NCBI RefSeq assembly: GCF_009695635.1
Contig: NZ_VUNN01000003.1
Coordinates: forward strand, 1-64,000
Origin: Bullifex porci
GTDB taxonomy: Bacteria; Spirochaetota; Spirochaetia; Sphaerochaetales; Sphaerochaetaceae
Length of the DNA stretch: 64,000 nt
Reading direction: 5' to 3'
Part shown: in pieces, positions 33,126 through 42,704 of the stretch
How positions within the stretch are numbered: position 1 is the stretch's first letter
Layout: each line of letters opens with the position of its first letter
The notes under the pieces: model-generated
Databases searched by the model: none
What the model was told of the DNA's origin: nothing
What the model saw: only the letters and a program-made list of their open reading frames with translations
Position numbers and translations under genes: made by a program

Positions 33126-34811
33126 TCAGTTCCCTTCGTTATCGATAAAGCCCATCATATCATTAATTGATGCCCCTGGAGCAACCATTGGAAGAACCTT
33201 ATCATCGATAGGAATCTCACAATCAACAACTACACCCTCATTAAGTTCGAATGCAGATTTCAAGATTGCTTCAGCATCATCATCGGCCTTTAATCTCATA
33301 CCCTTAACGCCATAAGCATTAGCAAGCATAACCCAATCAAGTGGAGTATCAAGAGTAGTCTCACTATAGTGCTTTTGGAAGAATAGGTTTTGCCACTGTC
33401 TAACCATACCTAAGCAATGGTTATTAAAGACTAGGATAACTACTGGGAGCTTATATCTTGCAATAGTGGCTAGCTCATTGCAGTTCATTCTAAAGGAACC
33501 ATCACCTGCAACATTTACTACCCTTGCTTCAGGATTAGCAATTTGAGCACCAATTGCAGCACCTGTACCAAAGCCCATGGTACCTAAGCCACCAGAAGTA
33601 AGGAAATGTCTTGGCTTGTTGTGCTTTAAGTATTGAGCTGCCCACATTTGGTGCTGACCAACCTCGGTAGCAACAAATGCATCCTTCTCAGTAGAAAGAA
33701 CATCATCAAGAGCCTTTAAAATCTCTCTAGGTCTTTTAGACTCTAAGGTTACCTTCATAGGGAAGCGTCTCTTTGCATCCTGAACTCTATCCATCCAATC
33801 CTTATGCTCTCTCTTTTCAAGGCGAGAGTTAAGAATTGTTAATATCTCCTTTATATCACCAACAACATGACTATCAGAGATAATGTTTTTGTCAAACTCT
33901 GCTGGATCAATATCGAGCTGAAGGATACGCGCTTGAGTTGCAAAGGTAGAGCCCTTACTAATAACTCTATCAGAGAAACGAGCACCAATGACTATTAATA
34001 GGTCACAGGAGTTGACCATTAAATTACTAACCTTAGTTCCATGCATTCCAACCATACCAGTAAAACGTGGATTAAAGCTTGGAACAGCTCCTAATGCCAT
34101 TAGAGAAGAACATACTGGAGCATCAATTCTATCGATAAATTCAACTAATTCAGCTGAAGCATCAGATCTAATAACGCCACCACCAATGTAGCACATAGGT
34201 CTCTCTGATAATGAAATTAAATTAATAGCCTTTTCAATATCATCATCTCTTAATCTAGAGGTGCTTCTCTTTACTGGCTCGATCTCAACTCTTTCATACT
34301 CAATTAAATCCTGCTGAATATTCTTTGGGATATCAACTAAGACAGGACCTGGTCTACCCTCTTTAGCAATTTTGAAAGCCTCTCTCAAAGTTGCTGCAAG
34401 CTCATTTTTATCCTTTACTATGTAGTTATGCTTAGTAATAGGCATAGTAACACCTGTAATATCAACCTCCTGGAAGCTATCGCGACCAAGAAGAGTTACA
34501 GGAACATTACCTGTAATAGCAACTACTGGAGATGAGTCCATATATGCTGTAGCTAATCCTGTAACAAGATTAGTAGCACCAGGACCAGAGGTTGCAATAC
34601 ATACACCAACCTTTCCAGAGGATCTAGCATATCCATCAGCAGCGTGGCTAGCACCCTGCTCATGGGCTGTAAGGATATGTTTAATTCTATCCCTATTCAT
34701 ATACAATGCATCATAGAGAGGGATTACCTGACCACCTGGATAACCAAATACACGGTCAACTCCCTGTTCAATAAGACATTCTATTATTAATTGTGCACCT
34801 GTTATTTGCAA
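33126..34811 (-). CDS. ilvB: Acetolactate synthase large (catalytic) subunit
   Basis: 561 residues, ThDP enzyme making acetolactate/acetohydroxybutyrate for Val, Leu and Ile. FGYPGGQVIPLYDAL and AHEQGASHAADGYARSSG (catalytic Glu), and the ThDP-binding segment from GDGSFRMNCNELA to LVFNN, are clear. The start is TTG at 34811, one base after the ilvD stop, with AAGGAG lying inside the last ilvD codons. The in-frame ATG further upstream (34865) lies deep in ilvD and is rejected. Its regulatory subunit gene ilvN is at the opposite end of the same operon. Confidence 0.94.
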   Translation of the reverse strand: MQITGAQLIIECLIEQGVDRVFGYPGGQVIPLYDALYMNRDRIKHILTAHEQGASHAADGYARSSGKVGVCIATSGPGATNLVTGLATAYMDSSPVVAITGNVPVTLLGRDSFQEVDITGVTMPITKHNYIVKDKNELAATLREAFKIAKEGRPGPVLVDIPKNIQQDLIEYERVEIEPVKRSTSRLRDDDIEKAINLISLSERPMCYIGGGVIRSDASAELVEFIDRIDAPVCSSLMALGAVPSFNPRFTGMVGMHGTKVSNLMVNSCDLLIVIGARFSDRVISKGSTFATQARILQLDIDPAEFDKNIISDSHVVGDIKEILTILNSRLEKREHKDWMDRVQDAKRRFPMKVTLESKRPREILKALDDVLSTEKDAFVATEVGQHQMWAAQYLKHNKPRHFLTSGGLGTMGFGTGAAIGAQIANPEARVVNVAGDGSFRMNCNELATIARYKLPVVILVFNNHCLGMVRQWQNLFFQKHYSETTLDTPLDWVMLANAYGVKGMRLKADDDAEAILKSAFELNEGVVVDCEIPIDDKVLPMVAPGASINDMMGFIDNEGN

Positions 34812-34812
34812 T

Positions 34813-36489
34813 TTAATTCTCCTTAAAGATAGCACCCATATTGGCAGATGTAACTCTCTGAGCATAGCGTGCTAAGTATCCACTATTAATCTTAGGCTGA
34901 TGTGGCTTTAAATTCTTTCTTCTTTCCTCTAATACTTCATCACTTACTAAGAGCTCAAGAACTCCATTGTTAATATCGATGTGTATTTCATCACCACTTT
35001 CAACTAAGGCAATAGTACCACCTAGAGCAGCCTCTGGAGATACATGTCCAATTGAAGCACCACGAGTAGCACCTGAGAATCTACCATCTGTAATCAATGC
35101 TACTTCCTTATCAAGTCCCATACCTGCAATAGCTGAGGTTGGGGAGAGCATCTCTCTCATACCTGGACCACCCTTTGGTCCTTCATATCTAATAACAACT
35201 ACATCTCCTGAGACAATCTTACCGGAGAAGATTGCTGCAATAGCTTCCTCTTCACTGTTATATACCTTTGCCTTACCTGTATGCTCTAGCATCTCTGGAG
35301 CTACTGCTGATCTCTTAACAACAGCACCATCTGGAGCAAGGTTTCCACGAAGGACTGCAATACCACCAGTTGCAGAATATGGGTTATCAATAGGTCTAAT
35401 AACCTCATTATCCCAGTTATGAGCCTTATCAAAGCTATCTGAAATTGGATGACAGGTTACAGTCATCAAATCTCTCTTAAGAAGATTCTTCTTATCAAGC
35501 TCCTTCATTACAGCCATAACACCACCAGCAAGATTTAAATCCTCAATATGGTCCTTACCAGCTGGAGCTAGGTGACAAAGATTTGGAACCTGTGCAGAGA
35601 TCTCATTAGCTTTGAAAATATCAATCTTAAAGCCCGCTTCATGAGCTAATGCTGGCAGGTGAAGCATAGTATTTGTTGAGCAGCCAAGAGCCATATCAAC
35701 CTTTAAAGCATTTTCAAATGCATCTGGAGTCATGATATCGCGAATTCTAATATTCTTCTCTAGAAGCTCCATAATCTTATAGCCACTTTCCTTGGCAAGT
35801 CTCTCTCTTGCTGAATATACACAAGGTATAGTTCCATTTCCAGGAAGCGCAGCACCAATAGCCTCACAAAGACAGTTCATACTATTTGCAGTGTACATAC
35901 CTGAGCATGAGCCACATGAAGGACATACACTATTTTCCCACTGAAGAAGCTCCTCATCATTCATCTTTCCAGCTGCATGCTTACCTACTGCTTCAAACAT
36001 GCTAGAAAGACTCATTCCTCTCTTGTCCCCTCCTGGAAGGTGACCAGCTAGCATTGCACCACCAGATACAACGATAGTAGGAAGATTTAATCTTAGGGCA
36101 GCCATAAGCATACCAGGTACAATTTTATCGCAGTTTGGAACAAGTACTAAGGCATCAAAAGGATGAGCTGTAGCCATAACCTCAATTGAATCAGCAATTA
36201 GCTCACGGGAAGCAAGAGAGTACTTCATACCGGTGTGTCCCATTGCAATACCATCACAAACACCAATAACAGGGAAGGTTACAGGATTACCACCAGCTTC
36301 TCTAACTCCAGCCTTTACAGCATCAACAATACGATTAAGCTGTACATGTCCTGGGATTATCTCATTATAACCAGAGACGATACCAATCATTGGCATATTA
36401 ATTTCTTTATCTGTCCATCCGAGAGCCTTCATAAGGCTTCTATGAGGAGCTCTTTCTGGCCCCTGTGTCATTACATCACTTCTTTTCAT
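34813..36489 (-). CDS. ilvD: Dihydroxy-acid dehydratase
   Basis: 558 residues. It dehydrates dihydroxy acids to the 2-keto acids of Val and Ile using an iron-sulfur cluster. Cluster cysteines are seen in [10 protein letters not shown] and in [36 protein letters not shown] and [20 protein letters not shown]-like blocks ([10 protein letters not shown]) are family markers. It overlaps leuB by 4 bases and is followed one base later by ilvB. Confidence 0.96.
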
Positions 36490-37553
36490 TTAATTCTCTC
36501 CACTATAGCGTCACCCATTCCAACAGTACCGACCTTAATCATTCCATCTGTATAGATATCTGGAGTTCTGTAGCCATCCTCAAGTGCTTGATAAACAGCA
36601 GCTTCAACACTATCTGCTTCCTTAGCTAAGCTGAAGGTATATCTGAGCATCATAGCTATAGACAAAATAGTTGCAATTGGATTAGCAATATCTAAGCCCG
36701 CAATATCTGGTGCAGAGCCATGTATTGGTTCATACATACCAAAGCTATCCTCTCTCAAGGATGCAGATGGAAGCATACCAATAGAACCAGTAATCATACT
36801 TGCTTCATCAGATAAAATATCACCAAACATATTCTCAGTTAAAATAACATCAAATTGATGTGGGTTTCTAACTAGCTGCATTGAAGCGTTATCAACATAA
36901 AGATGGTCTAAGCTACAATCTGGATAATCCTTCTTAACCTCTTCAGTAGTTGCTCTCCAAAGTCTACTTGTCTCAAGAACATTTGCTTTATCGACACTAG
37001 TTACCTTTCCATTTCTCTTTTGAGCAATTTCAAAGGCCTTTCTTGCAATTCTTTCGATCTCAGGCCTTGTGTAGCTCATGATATCATAAGCTTCATTTCC
37101 ATCTTCGCTTTTACCCTTTTTACCAAAGTAAATACCACCAGTTAGCTCTCTAACAACCATGATATCTAAGCCATCACCAATGATATCTGAACGAAGAGGA
37201 CAAGCACTTTTTAGCTGCTTATATAAAATAGCTGGTCTAAGATTACAAAAGAGTCCTAAGCCACTTCTAAGTCCTAAAAGAGCCTTTTCAGGTCTATTAG
37301 AGGACTCAACCTTATCCCATTTAGGACCTCCTACAGCACCAAGAAGAACTGCATCGCTCTTTTTACATACCTCTAGAGTCTCAGGAGGAAGAGATACTCC
37401 CACCTTATCAATAGCAGCTCCACCTGCAAGAACAGTCTCGTAGCTTACACTATGGTTATTTAGCTGACAAACCTTATCTAAAACTCTAATTGCCTGTGCA
37501 ACAATATCTGGTCCAATTCCATCACCTGGAACTACAGCAATTTTTAAATTCAT
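36486..37553 (-). CDS. leuB: 3-isopropylmalate dehydrogenase
   Basis: 355 residues. It oxidises and decarboxylates 3-isopropylmalate in leucine synthesis with [20 protein letters not shown] at the start, [14 protein letters not shown] (substrate arginines), [11 protein letters not shown], and [18 protein letters not shown] (metal-binding Asp region) are typical. It overlaps leuD by one base upstream and ilvD by four downstream. Confidence 0.96.
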
Positions 37554-38044
37554 TAATTATTCTCCTTTGCCATATATGGAGCTAGCCCGCCTGCAGATAT
37601 CAAGCTCTGCATAAATGGAGGGAATGGTTCAGCCTGATACTCCTCATTTTTAGTAAGGTTCTTAATTACTCCACTATCGAAATCAACCTCTACCTCATCA
37701 CCTGCTTCAATATTGTCGCAAGCCTCTTCACACTCTAGGATAGCAAGACCAATATTAATTGAATTTCTATAGAAGATACGAGCAAAGGAACGAGCAATTA
37801 CACATCCAATACCACTTGTTTTAATAGCTAATGGAGCGTGCTCACGGCTAGAGCCACATCCAAAGTTTTTATCAGCTACGATGATATCACCCTTTTTAAC
37901 CTTCTTAACGAAATCCTTATCAATATCCTCCATGCAGTGAGAAGCAAGCTCCTCAGCATTGCTAGTATTTAAATAGCGTGCAGGAATGATTACATCTGTA
38001 TCAACATTATCCTTATATCTGAATACCTTTCCTTTAGTCTTCAT
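37553..38044 (-). CDS. leuD: 3-isopropylmalate dehydratase small subunit
   Basis: 163 residues, partner of LeuC in isomerising 2- to 3-isopropylmalate. The swivelling domain is marked by [14 protein letters not shown] and [16 protein letters not shown]. The short length fits the small-subunit type found in archaea and many anaerobes rather than the 200-residue enterobacterial type. ATG 38044 is chosen because GGAGGA lies at the right distance; a GTG six bases upstream is too close to it. Confidence 0.94.
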
Positions 38045-38056
38045 AATCACTCCTCC

Positions 38057-39316
38057 TTATAGTGCATTTGGATCTGTAATATAACCAGTTACAGCACTTG
38101 CTGCAGCTACATGTGGAGAAGCAAGGTAAACCTCACTCTCTACATGACCCATTCTTCCAACAAAGTTTCTATTTGTAGTTGAAATAGCTCTTTCTCCGGC
38201 AGCTAAGATACCCATATAGCCACCAAGACATGGTCCACAGGTAGGAGTAGAAATTACACAGCCAGCATCAAGGAAAATATCAAAAAGACCTTCATGCATT
38301 GCTTCACGATATATCTTTTGAGTTGCAGGAATAATGATAGCACGAACAGACTTATCAATATGTCTTCCCTTCAAGATTTCAGCAGCAGCTCTTAAATCTG
38401 AAATTCTACCATTAGTACAAGAACCAATAACAACCTGGTCAATCTTTACTTTAGGCATATTACTAAAGGTTTTTGTATTAGATGGGAGGTGTGGGAAGGA
38501 TACTGTGCTTTCAAGCTTAGACAAATCAATTTCAATTACTTCGTCATAGCTAGCATCACTATCACTATTAAAGATTACAGGAGTCTTAGCACCAGCTTCC
38601 TTTAAATAAGCTAAGGTCTTTTCATCAACTGGGAAGATACCATTCTTTGCACCAGCCTCGATAGCCATATTACAAACTGTAAATCTATCATCCATTGAAA
38701 GGGAAGCAACTCCCTCTCCTGTAAATTCCATGCTTTTATAAAGAGCACCATCAACTCCAATTTGTCCAATTATATGTAAGATAAGATCCTTACCAGTTAC
38801 ATATCTATTAAACTTACCCTTTAAAACAAACTTAATTGATGATGGAACCTTGAACCATGCCTTTCCTGTTGCCATTCCACAAGCCATATCTGTAGAACCA
38901 ACTCCAGTAGAGAAGGCACCAAGGGCACCATAGGTACAGGTGTGGCTATCAGCACCAATTACAACATCTCCTGCTGTAACTAATCCCTTCTCAGGAAGAA
39001 GAGCGTGCTCGATTCCAGCCTCACCTACTTCAAAGTAGTTTTTAATATTTTGTTCATTAGCAAAGCATCTTACACATTTGCATTGCTCTGCCGCTTTAAT
39101 GTCTTTATTAGGAGCAAAGTGATCAGGGATCATTGCAACCTTAGTATTATCAAAGACAGTCTTCTTTCCAAATTTTGGAAATTCCTTAATAGCAACTGGG
39201 CTAGTAATATCATTTCCAAGAACCATTGATAAATCAGCCATAATTAATTGACCTGAATGTACACTATCTAATCCGGCTGCTTTGGCTAAGATTTTCTCAG
39301 TTATAGTCATTCCCAT
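38057..39316 (-). CDS. leuC: 3-isopropylmalate dehydratase large subunit
   Basis: 419 residues, aconitase family. Cluster cysteines are visible in [13 protein letters not shown] and [33 protein letters not shown] is the substrate-site block. The compact length matches the LeuC/homoaconitase-type partner of a short LeuD. It ends 12 bases before leuD and starts 3 bases after the leuA stop, with GAGGAG upstream. Confidence 0.95.
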
Positions 39317-39319
39317 AAC

Positions 39320-40918
39320 TCACTTCTCCTCAGTTTTATCGGTGTGACCCATGAGCATATCATTTTCAAAGCTCATCTTCATGGCACTTTCACCAGTTCT
39401 CATACCACTCGAATTCTCATCGAGCATCTTATTAACAGCATTGAGACAAGCTAAAATACTTGCTTCAATAACATCGGTTGAAACACCTCTACCACGGAAC
39501 ACACCATTGTTATCGCTAATTTTGACTAATACTTCCCCGAGAGCGTCCCTATGTTCCGTTACAGCCTGTAATTGATAATCCTCAAGGCTGAATGGGTGTT
39601 TAATAATCTTTTCTACCGTTCTTAATGCGGCATATACAGGACCTGTACCAGCAGCAACCTCTTGATAGAGCTTTTCACCCTTTTTGAGAGTAATACATGC
39701 TGTTGCAGTCATATGATTACCACTATTAACAACGAAATTATCAAGTGTCCAAAGCTGACTCTTAACATCCTCTGTAGATTCTACTAAAGCGATAATATCT
39801 CTATCAGAGATAGTTTTCTTTCTATCTGTCAGCTTCTTGAACTCTGCAAATAGGCGATCAACATCCTCTTTTGGTAAATCATAACCAAGCTCTACAAGCT
39901 TCTTAGTAAAGGCATGCTGACCTGAGTGCTTTCCAAGTACTAAATTGGTTTGGGTTAAGCCAACACTCTCTGGAGTCATAATCTCATAGGTCTTACTATT
40001 TGCCATAACACCATGCTGGTGGATACCAGACTCATGTGCAAATGCATTTTGACCAACAATAGCCTTAGATGGATTAATCTTTACACCAGTAGTAGAGGAT
40101 AATAATCTAGCAGAACGAGTAATCTCTGTAGTAACAATATTATTCTGGTATGGATATAAATCAGGACGAGTATGCATAAGCATTGCAAGCTCCTCCATAG
40201 CTGCGTTACCAGCTCTTTCACCAATACCACAAAGAGTACACTCAATCTGTCTTGCACCAGCTACAACACCAGCCATTGAGTTTGATACTGCAAGGCCAAG
40301 GTCATTATGACAGTGCATAGAAAGAATAGCTTTATCAACATTTGGAACGTGATTTCTTACATATGAGACCATAAGTGCGATCTCATCAGGAGTAGAATAA
40401 CCAACTGTATCAGGAAGGTTAACTGTTGTTGCACCCTCCTTAATTGCGAGTTCAACTACACGACACATATAATCAAGATCTGTTCTTGTAGCATCCTCCA
40501 AGCTAAACTCAACATTAGAACAAAGAGAAGAAGCATAACGTACATTCTCTTTAATTCTTTCAAGAGCCTCCTCCCTACTCATTTTCAGCTTATATTGTAG
40601 GTGAAGATCACTTGTTGCTAAAAAGAGGTGAATTCTAGGGCTTACTGCATGCTTAACAGCATCATAGGCTGCATCAATATCCTTCTTTAAGGCACGAGCT
40701 AAGGATGCAACTGTACAGTTTTTTATTGCACCAGCAATTGCAGTAACACTCTCTTTATCACCAGGAGATGAGATGGCAAAGCCAGCCTCAATGATATCTA
40801 CTCCTAGTGCTTCGAGCTGCTTTGCAATTTTAATTTTCTCTTCCAAGTTCATGGAGTAACCTGGAGCCTGCTCACCATCTCTTAGCGTTGTATCAAAAAA
40901 ATAGACTCTATCTGCCAT
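39320..40918 (-). CDS. leuA: 2-isopropylmalate synthase
   Basis: 532 residues. FFDTTLRDGEQAPGYSM (metal-binding Asp and catalytic Arg), LSMHCHNDLGLAVSN (metal-binding His) and a C-terminal allosteric LeuA-dimer domain (about 370-510) identify the committed enzyme of leucine synthesis, normally inhibited by leucine. Citramalate synthases share the fold; presence of leuBCD and the overall layout favour LeuA. It has its own AGGAG and lies 21 bases after ilvC. Confidence 0.92.
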   Translation of the reverse strand: MADRVYFFDTTLRDGEQAPGYSMNLEEKIKIAKQLEALGVDIIEAGFAISSPGDKESVTAIAGAIKNCTVASLARALKKDIDAAYDAVKHAVSPRIHLFLATSDLHLQYKLKMSREEALERIKENVRYASSLCSNVEFSLEDATRTDLDYMCRVVELAIKEGATTVNLPDTVGYSTPDEIALMVSYVRNHVPNVDKAILSMHCHNDLGLAVSNSMAGVVAGARQIECTLCGIGERAGNAAMEELAMLMHTRPDLYPYQNNIVTTEITRSARLLSSTTGVKINPSKAIVGQNAFAHESGIHQHGVMANSKTYEIMTPESVGLTQTNLVLGKHSGQHAFTKKLVELGYDLPKEDVDRLFAEFKKLTDRKKTISDRDIIALVESTEDVKSQLWTLDNFVVNSGNHMTATACITLKKGEKLYQEVAAGTGPVYAALRTVEKIIKHPFSLEDYQLQAVTEHRDALGEVLVKISDNNGVFRGRGVSTDVIEASILACLNAVNKMLDENSSGMRTGESAMKMSFENDMLMGHTDKTEEK

Positions 40919-40939: not shown

Positions 40940-42470
<1,531 letters not shown>

Positions 42471-42493
42471 CAAGACCTCCTAATAAAAAAAAT

Positions 42494-42521
42494 AACCCGT
42501 GATTCTTTTTAACCACGGGCT
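42494..42521 (-). terminator. Attenuator terminator of the ilv-leu operon (segments 3:4)
   Basis: On the minus strand AGCCCGTGGTT pairs over 11 bp (two G-U) with AATCACGGGTT around a short loop, followed by a U-run (plus-strand A-run 42484-42492). It stands between the leader peptide and ilvN and, when formed, would stop transcription of the operon. Confidence 0.88.
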
Positions 42522-42533
42522 ACAACAAAAAAG

Positions 42534-42554
42534 AACTAAGCCGGTGGTTTAGTT
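42534..42554 (-). promoter_or_regulatory. Attenuator hairpin 1:2 and antiterminator segment
   Basis: AACTAA and TTAGTT form a hairpin holding segment 2 in its loop and stem. Segment 2 (minus strand AACCACCGGCT, 42549-42539) is complementary at 10 of 11 positions to segment 3 (AGCCCGTGGTT, 42521-42511), so pairing 2:3 would break the terminator. The leader peptide stop codon lies in arm 1, as in classical attenuators. Confidence 0.75.
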
Positions 42555-42638
42555 TCTAAGTAGCACTACAATAATAAGAGAAATAAGAGCGATCAAAGGA
42601 AGTGGCTTTTTAATATCTATTGTTTTAAAAACTGTCAT
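42549..42638 (-). CDS. ilv-leu operon leader peptide (29 residues)
   Basis: ATG at 42638 behind AAGGAGG. The peptide starts MTVFKTIDIKK and residues 13-27 read LPLIALISLIIVVLL, so 12 of 15 codons specify Leu, Ile or Val, before RN and the stop. Ribosome stalling in this stretch when a charged branched-chain tRNA is scarce would free the antiterminator. Position between promoter and terminator, its own ribosome site and overlap with hairpin 1:2 all support a genuine leader. Confidence 0.9.
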   Translation of the reverse strand: MTVFKTIDIKKPLPLIALISLIIVVLLRN

Positions 42639-42676
42639 CTTTGACCTCCTTTAATCTCTAAGCTTGATAACAAGTA

Positions 42677-42704
42677 TTTACAACTTTTTCTACTCTTAAG
42701 TCAA
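42677..42704 (-). promoter_or_regulatory. Promoter of the ilv-leu operon
   Basis: On the minus strand TTGACT (42704-42699), 16-base spacer, TGTAAA (42682-42677), about 35 bases before the leader peptide ATG. The AT-rich stretch 42705-42878 beyond it contains no gene that I can see. Confidence 0.55.

Follow-up and report, generated by a model that had tools for sequence, protein, structure and literature searches.

A conserved Leu/Ile/Val-rich leader upstream of ilvN in the Sphaerochaetaceae, read as a ribosome-mediated transcription attenuator

The first 64,000 nt of contig NZ_VUNN01000003.1 of Bullifex porci (hereafter the window) carry on the minus strand an operon for the synthesis of branched-chain amino acids (BCAA), headed by a short open reading frame crowded with Leu, Ile and Val codons. 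How is transcription into this operon controlled, and is the upstream region a leader-peptide attenuator? Attenuators in ilv and leu leaders are known in Proteobacteria and Actinobacteria, and those of leu, ilvGMEDA and ilvB in Escherichia coli and Salmonella follow the classical design, in which protector (1:2), antiterminator (2:3) and terminator (3:4) pairings compete. A previous inspection of the locus, the sequence-only reading, had proposed this arrangement in what it rightly took for a spirochaete, and we assessed it here in the window and in related genomes.

Parts of the ilvN leader and its operon

NCBIfam models named all eight genes that had been assigned to the operon, in the order ilvN-ilvC-leuA-leuC-leuD-leuB-ilvD-ilvB on the minus strand. 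The first, encoding the acetolactate synthase small subunit, spans 41949-42470 when read from the ATG at 42470 (the automatic ORF start is a TTG at 42473), and is followed by ilvC (40940-41965), leuA (39320-40918), leuC (38057-39316), leuD (37553-38050), leuB (36486-37553), ilvD (34813-36489) and ilvB, listed as an ORF at 33126-34865 with its true start probably near 34805. This order is kept across the sampled genera of the family. Most genera have an extra gene between leuA and leuC (L167:3551-5248, and at the same place in L168-L176 and L179), absent from the window and from the sampled g10 genomes; the L167 gene looks LeuA/citramalate-synthase-like by eye, and at the other loci the observation is of a gap of like size.

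Upstream of ilvN, the promoter, Shine-Dalgarno sequence and 29-residue leader of the sequence-only reading were all found on the minus strand. The −35 hexamer TTGACT (42704-42699) is separated by an 18-nt spacer from a −10 element, TAAATA (42680-42675), that is weak, matching the consensus at 3 of 6 positions, and was overlooked by the promoter scan. Family-wide, a TTGACA-type −35 lies upstream of the leader, and many g10 genomes display TATAAG. The Shine-Dalgarno sequence AAGGAGGT (42651-42644) precedes the leader ORF, which runs for 29 codons from the ATG at 42638 to the TAA at 42551-42549, encodes MTVFKTIDIKKPLPLIALISLIIVVLLRN and has homologues throughout the family. Leu, Ile or Val occupies 12 of the 15 positions of its control run, and the final two sense codons, Arg-Asn, fall outside this set.

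The end of the leader ORF merges with a series of potentially pairing segments. Segment 1, AACUAA (42554-42549), comprises the final codon and the stop, which places the stop codon inside hairpin 1:2 as had been claimed; both folding and covariation within the clade support its pairing with UUAGUU (42539-42534) in the 1:2 protector. Segment 2, or arm A (AACCACCGGCU, 42549-42539), begins at the leader stop and pairs with segment 3, or arm B (AGCCCGUGGUU, 42521-42511), at 10 of 11 positions, the same count as in the sequence-only reading. Arm B is common to the antiterminator A:B and the terminator B:C, whose 3′ arm is segment 4, or arm C (AAUCACGGGUU, 42504-42494), located by the terminator scan and by covariation of B:C in the relatives that we term class I (g1 and g10). 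The terminator hairpin as a whole (42523-42492, 13 pairs including G-U) is the longest of five detected in the 12 kb scanned, and the Shine-Dalgarno sequence of ilvN, AGGAGGT, lies at 42481-42475. A terminator with a U-run before ilvN is thus present as proposed, but position 42494, given as its end, bounds only the 3′ arm, and the run of eight U extends from 42492 to 42485. At 42543, the one mismatch between arms A and B, the window species and its two closest relatives have C, A or U, and none has the G that would complete the antiterminator; judged from these three genomes, this may be tuning.

Conservation, covariation and distribution in the family

None of these parts is compelling on its own. 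Small ORFs rich in Leu/Ile/Val also occur out of frame within ilvC and ilvB, and among those listed only the leader has a Shine-Dalgarno sequence. Terminator-like sites are no more numerous than in shuffled sequence, and the folding stability of the whole leader is unremarkable (z of −1.68). Minimum-energy folds of the full-length leader favour the terminator; a kinetic switch should look so, and full-length folding gives no support by itself.

We therefore turn to the relatives. The sample consisted of 139 genomes of the window's GTDB family, of which 94 encode IlvN, and a Leu/Ile/Val-rich leader was found upstream of ilvN in 93 of these 94. In 92 it precedes the best ilvN copy, with its stop 73-140 nt before the gene; in the 93rd (G021) the best ilvN copy has no leader and the element adjoins a second ilvN fragment. 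A hairpin kept in relatives devoid of the leader had been named as counterevidence, and the sole leaderless genome, G059 (L070/L178), has no hairpin either. It nevertheless keeps the usual ilvN-ilvC-leuA-leuC-leuD order. Throughout the family the leader stop is separated from arm A by a few nucleotides at most, usually 0-1. The arm cores are nearly invariant (CCACGG in A, CCGUGG in B), with a change on both sides in G078, where GCCACA:UGUGGC replaces the usual arms.

Because loop lengths differ, RNAalifold yielded little on MAFFT alignments, and covariation was scored instead by an alignment-free partner-swap test, in which each arm is paired with its own versus foreign partners. Kinship among the sequences makes the permutation counts optimistic, and tests on thinned sets are the fairer ones. 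In class I, own partners in the 1:2 helix gained 1.3 kcal/mol over foreign ones (0/5000 permutations), a result that withstood thinning to 21 clusters (0/10000) and to 8 clusters at least 7 edits apart (51/10000); within genus g1 alone the 1:2 signal was not significant (2024/5000). Changed-yet-paired examples include AUACUG:CAGUAU, AUGCU:AGCAU, AACUA:UAGUU and CUUGA:UCGAG. The terminator helix B:C of class I behaved similarly (0/5000; 2/10000 after thinning to 32 clusters). Through their common arm B, antiterminator A:B and terminator B:C are mutually exclusive in the window and in class I. The comparison with relatives suggested in the sequence-only reading thus turned out in its favour, the leader with its BCAA codons being conserved and the helices covarying. 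That the leader is present in 93 of 94 genomes, and that its helices covary, rules out a chance origin, even though the single parts are not rare, and confirms that the leader-attenuator observation is real.

To delimit its distribution we used a covariance model, R1, of 54 positions and 6 pairs, built from 49 family sequences. In 91 of the 139 family genomes it has a single match, which in each case lies shortly before ilvN in the same orientation (place lists compared by eye). Training sequences match by construction; what is informative is that there is one copy, that its place is fixed and that other genomes lack it. Two further genomes, G076 and G078, possess the leader and score under the R1 threshold. 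A phylum draw of 393 genomes yielded 27 with a match, all of them in the window's family, and none of 357 spirochaetes of other families was matched. Likewise, 40 ilvN upstream regions of other families revealed no such leader, save one unrelated-looking case. These 40 regions, with their one exception, and the 0/357 R1 matches rule out an element common to all Spirochaetota. On the minus strand of L126, from a GC-rich genome of family f4 (G442), a leader-like ORF ending in LSTLYILIIIVLLLILGI stops 238 nt before ilvN, and the GGGCUC at this stop is complementary to a GAGCCC further on; judged from these features, it is possibly an independent attenuator.

How the leader would act, and what else it could be

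The arrangement described above is very probably a classical ribosome-mediated transcription attenuator of ilvN-ilvB, a reading drawn from sequence comparison and already favoured at first inspection; the conserved leader with its BCAA codons and the covarying helices make it the best one. From this architecture we infer that the leader is translated, that ribosomes stall on it, that transcription terminates or reads through, and that each of the amino acids elicits a response. RNA polymerase would start near 42670, with a ribosome following on the leader ORF. When charged Leu, Ile or Val tRNA is scarce, the ribosome would stall in the control-codon run and leave arm A free to form the A:B antiterminator (2:3), so that transcription would continue into ilvN-ilvB. 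With all three amino acids plentiful, it would finish the leader and cover arm A, and the B:C terminator (3:4) with its U-run would then stop transcription before ilvN. If the leader is not translated, its end would pair behind arm A (1:2) and leave B for the terminator.

Ensemble folding is consistent with ribosome position deciding between these structures. For 11 leaders, the RNA up to arm B was folded with the ribosome masking it to 12 nt from the A site, an assumed footprint. The probability of A:B was ~0.8-0.99 with the A site at the last several control codons (about nine in the window's genus). It came down to 0.1-0.6 once the first trailing codon occupied the A site, and to 0-0.17 for the second one or the stop. 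In the window it amounted to 0.83 at each position of an eleven-codon stretch that opens with Ala and closes with the last Leu; Arg gave 0.46, Asn 0.16 and the stop 0. The ten other class I leaders resembled the window near the end of the run, and in several g10 leaders A:B dropped with the ribosome further upstream, where competing pairs become free. Given the two trailing codons of class I, the change-over would fall where the control codons end.

The near-invariance of the CCACGG/CCGUGG arms, even where only A:B must pair, is what a binding site would produce, and the conserved hairpin could accordingly be imagined as a riboswitch or protein site sensing a metabolite or a protein, with the Leu/Ile/Val ORF incidental. 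We regard this as very unlikely. An incidental ORF would not explain why arm A stays so close to the leader stop (a few nucleotides, mostly 0-1), nor why the ORF retains its Leu/Ile/Val run while other parts of the peptide vary freely and rare codons are enriched. Rfam offers no such RNA either: searches of the window and its relatives against release 15 returned no match beyond chance-level ones to unrelated families.

Control by a T-box, which the sequence-only reading had held to be the more usual solution for such operons in low-GC lineages, was rejected for the ilv-leu leader, where no T-box covariance-model match was found. T-boxes do occur in this genome: the sole one found lies before the threonyl-tRNA synthetase gene thrS (G000:C26:15251-15482; L163:1501-1732). 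Nine sampled genera have one T-box match each, three of them above the Rfam cut-off.

Codon usage bears on a further explanation. The last twelve leader codons were compared, per class, with codons of the same classes' operon genes. CUA makes up 33%, 33% and 46% of the Leu codons in leaders of class I, class II (g16, probably Sphaerochaeta, together with g12 and g13) and class III (g4, g5, g11, g15, g17, g19 and g20), respectively, versus 1-2% in operon genes, whereas CUG falls from 26-34% of Leu codons in operon genes to 1-6% in leaders; AUU and GUA are also commoner in leaders. In the AT-rich window genome the leader has no special CUA enrichment (1 of 6 Leu codons). Codons of the E. coli leu leader are chosen for sensitivity to tRNA charging, and we take the family-wide bias towards rare codons to reflect selection for such codons; RNA-pairing constraint may add to it. 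This synonymous bias is left unexplained if the ORF is a small membrane peptide, or an aid to translation through re-initiation or coupling to ilvN, next to an ordinary partial terminator. Leader peptides are hydrophobic, and leader genes have been proposed to boost translation of downstream genes (PMC4833913), yet a stop 73-140 nt from ilvN is too distant for simple coupling. What the peptides have in common is the Leu/Ile/Val run close to the stop; they share neither their N-terminal parts nor their lengths (17-71 aa). Such a role appears very unlikely, if anything still less probable than a sensing RNA.

Output designs in relatives and known attenuators

All 53 class I leaders possess a U-run, compared with 5 of 28 in class II and 4 of 11 in class III. 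In class III a long hairpin takes the place of the terminator: in most leaders a second copy of CCACGG pairs with arm B, nested in a long A′:C′ stem; B:C and A′:C′ both covary (0/5000 each; 1/10000 on clusters). Covariation in class II is seen for the distal A:B pairs (0/5000), and a separate C-rich/G-rich second hairpin stands clear of arm B, followed in most leaders by a conserved UAUACCC at fixed spacing. A window-pair scan of class II, looking for a counterpart of B:C or further covarying helices, recovered only A:B and the second hairpin. Unlike class I, class II has no B:C, and its A:B and second hairpin are without a common arm. A candidate class II pairing, E:F (GGGAGC with GCUuauaCCC), was dropped as inconsistent across genomes. 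The IlvN tree unites the g1 and g10 rows (98/94) and, in a second clade, those of g5, g15, g19 and g20 (100/100). Leaders of g16 (L053-L081) reach about 70 codons, versus the usual 15-30, and many apparently start at GTG behind GAGGAG.

Several known systems resemble the ilvN leader. As in E. coli and Salmonella, a BCAA operon is preceded by a Leu/Ile/Val leader with CUA codons (here family-wide) and competing protector, antiterminator and terminator; set against general knowledge of those leaders, arm A here abuts the stop and the core arms are near-invariant across genera, and no kinship is claimed. The rarity of such control outside proteobacteria and actinobacteria had been overstated at first reading: a ribosome-mediated ilv-leu attenuator has been shown with mutants and reporters for Listeria Rli60 (PMC5864092), one is supported for the Staphylococcus ilvD leader (PMC5794164), and the Leptospira ilvB motif (PMC8632094) has been reinterpreted as a BCAA-rich uORF and predicted attenuator (PMC10272879). 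The Listeria and Staphylococcus leaders differ from ours in that they precede ilvD, work beside CodY and have other peptides and structures. The Corynebacterium ilvB-II motif likewise combines a BCAA-rich uORF with a terminator/antiterminator before ilv genes (PMC10272879), and differs in sequence, first gene and phylum. Compared by its description, the Leptospira motif is also from a spirochaete, with its uORF about 70 nt before the ilv gene, but precedes ilvB rather than ilvN, has seven representatives and features prominent Thr and Val codons. Our literature search, with subscription journals outside its reach, returned no ilv/leu leader attenuator for the Sphaerochaetaceae; as far as we found, the ilvN leader is a very probable attenuator of textbook kind that Rfam does not list and that is apparently undescribed in this family.

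The finding adds a well supported, family-wide leader-peptide attenuator to the spirochaetes, a group with few known cases of RNA regulation, and a genome with both this leader and a T-box presents two tRNA-sensing solutions side by side. One tentative reading, which we consider somewhat less probable than its opposite, is that the family has kept the Leu/Ile/Val leader and the stop-abutting A:B sensor and swapped the output step outside the window's clade. If true, a leader-peptide sensor would there act not on intrinsic termination but on Rho-dependent termination, on cleavage by an RNase or on translation. The about ninety leaders and their three output designs offer a natural series on how a terminator changes while the sensor is kept.
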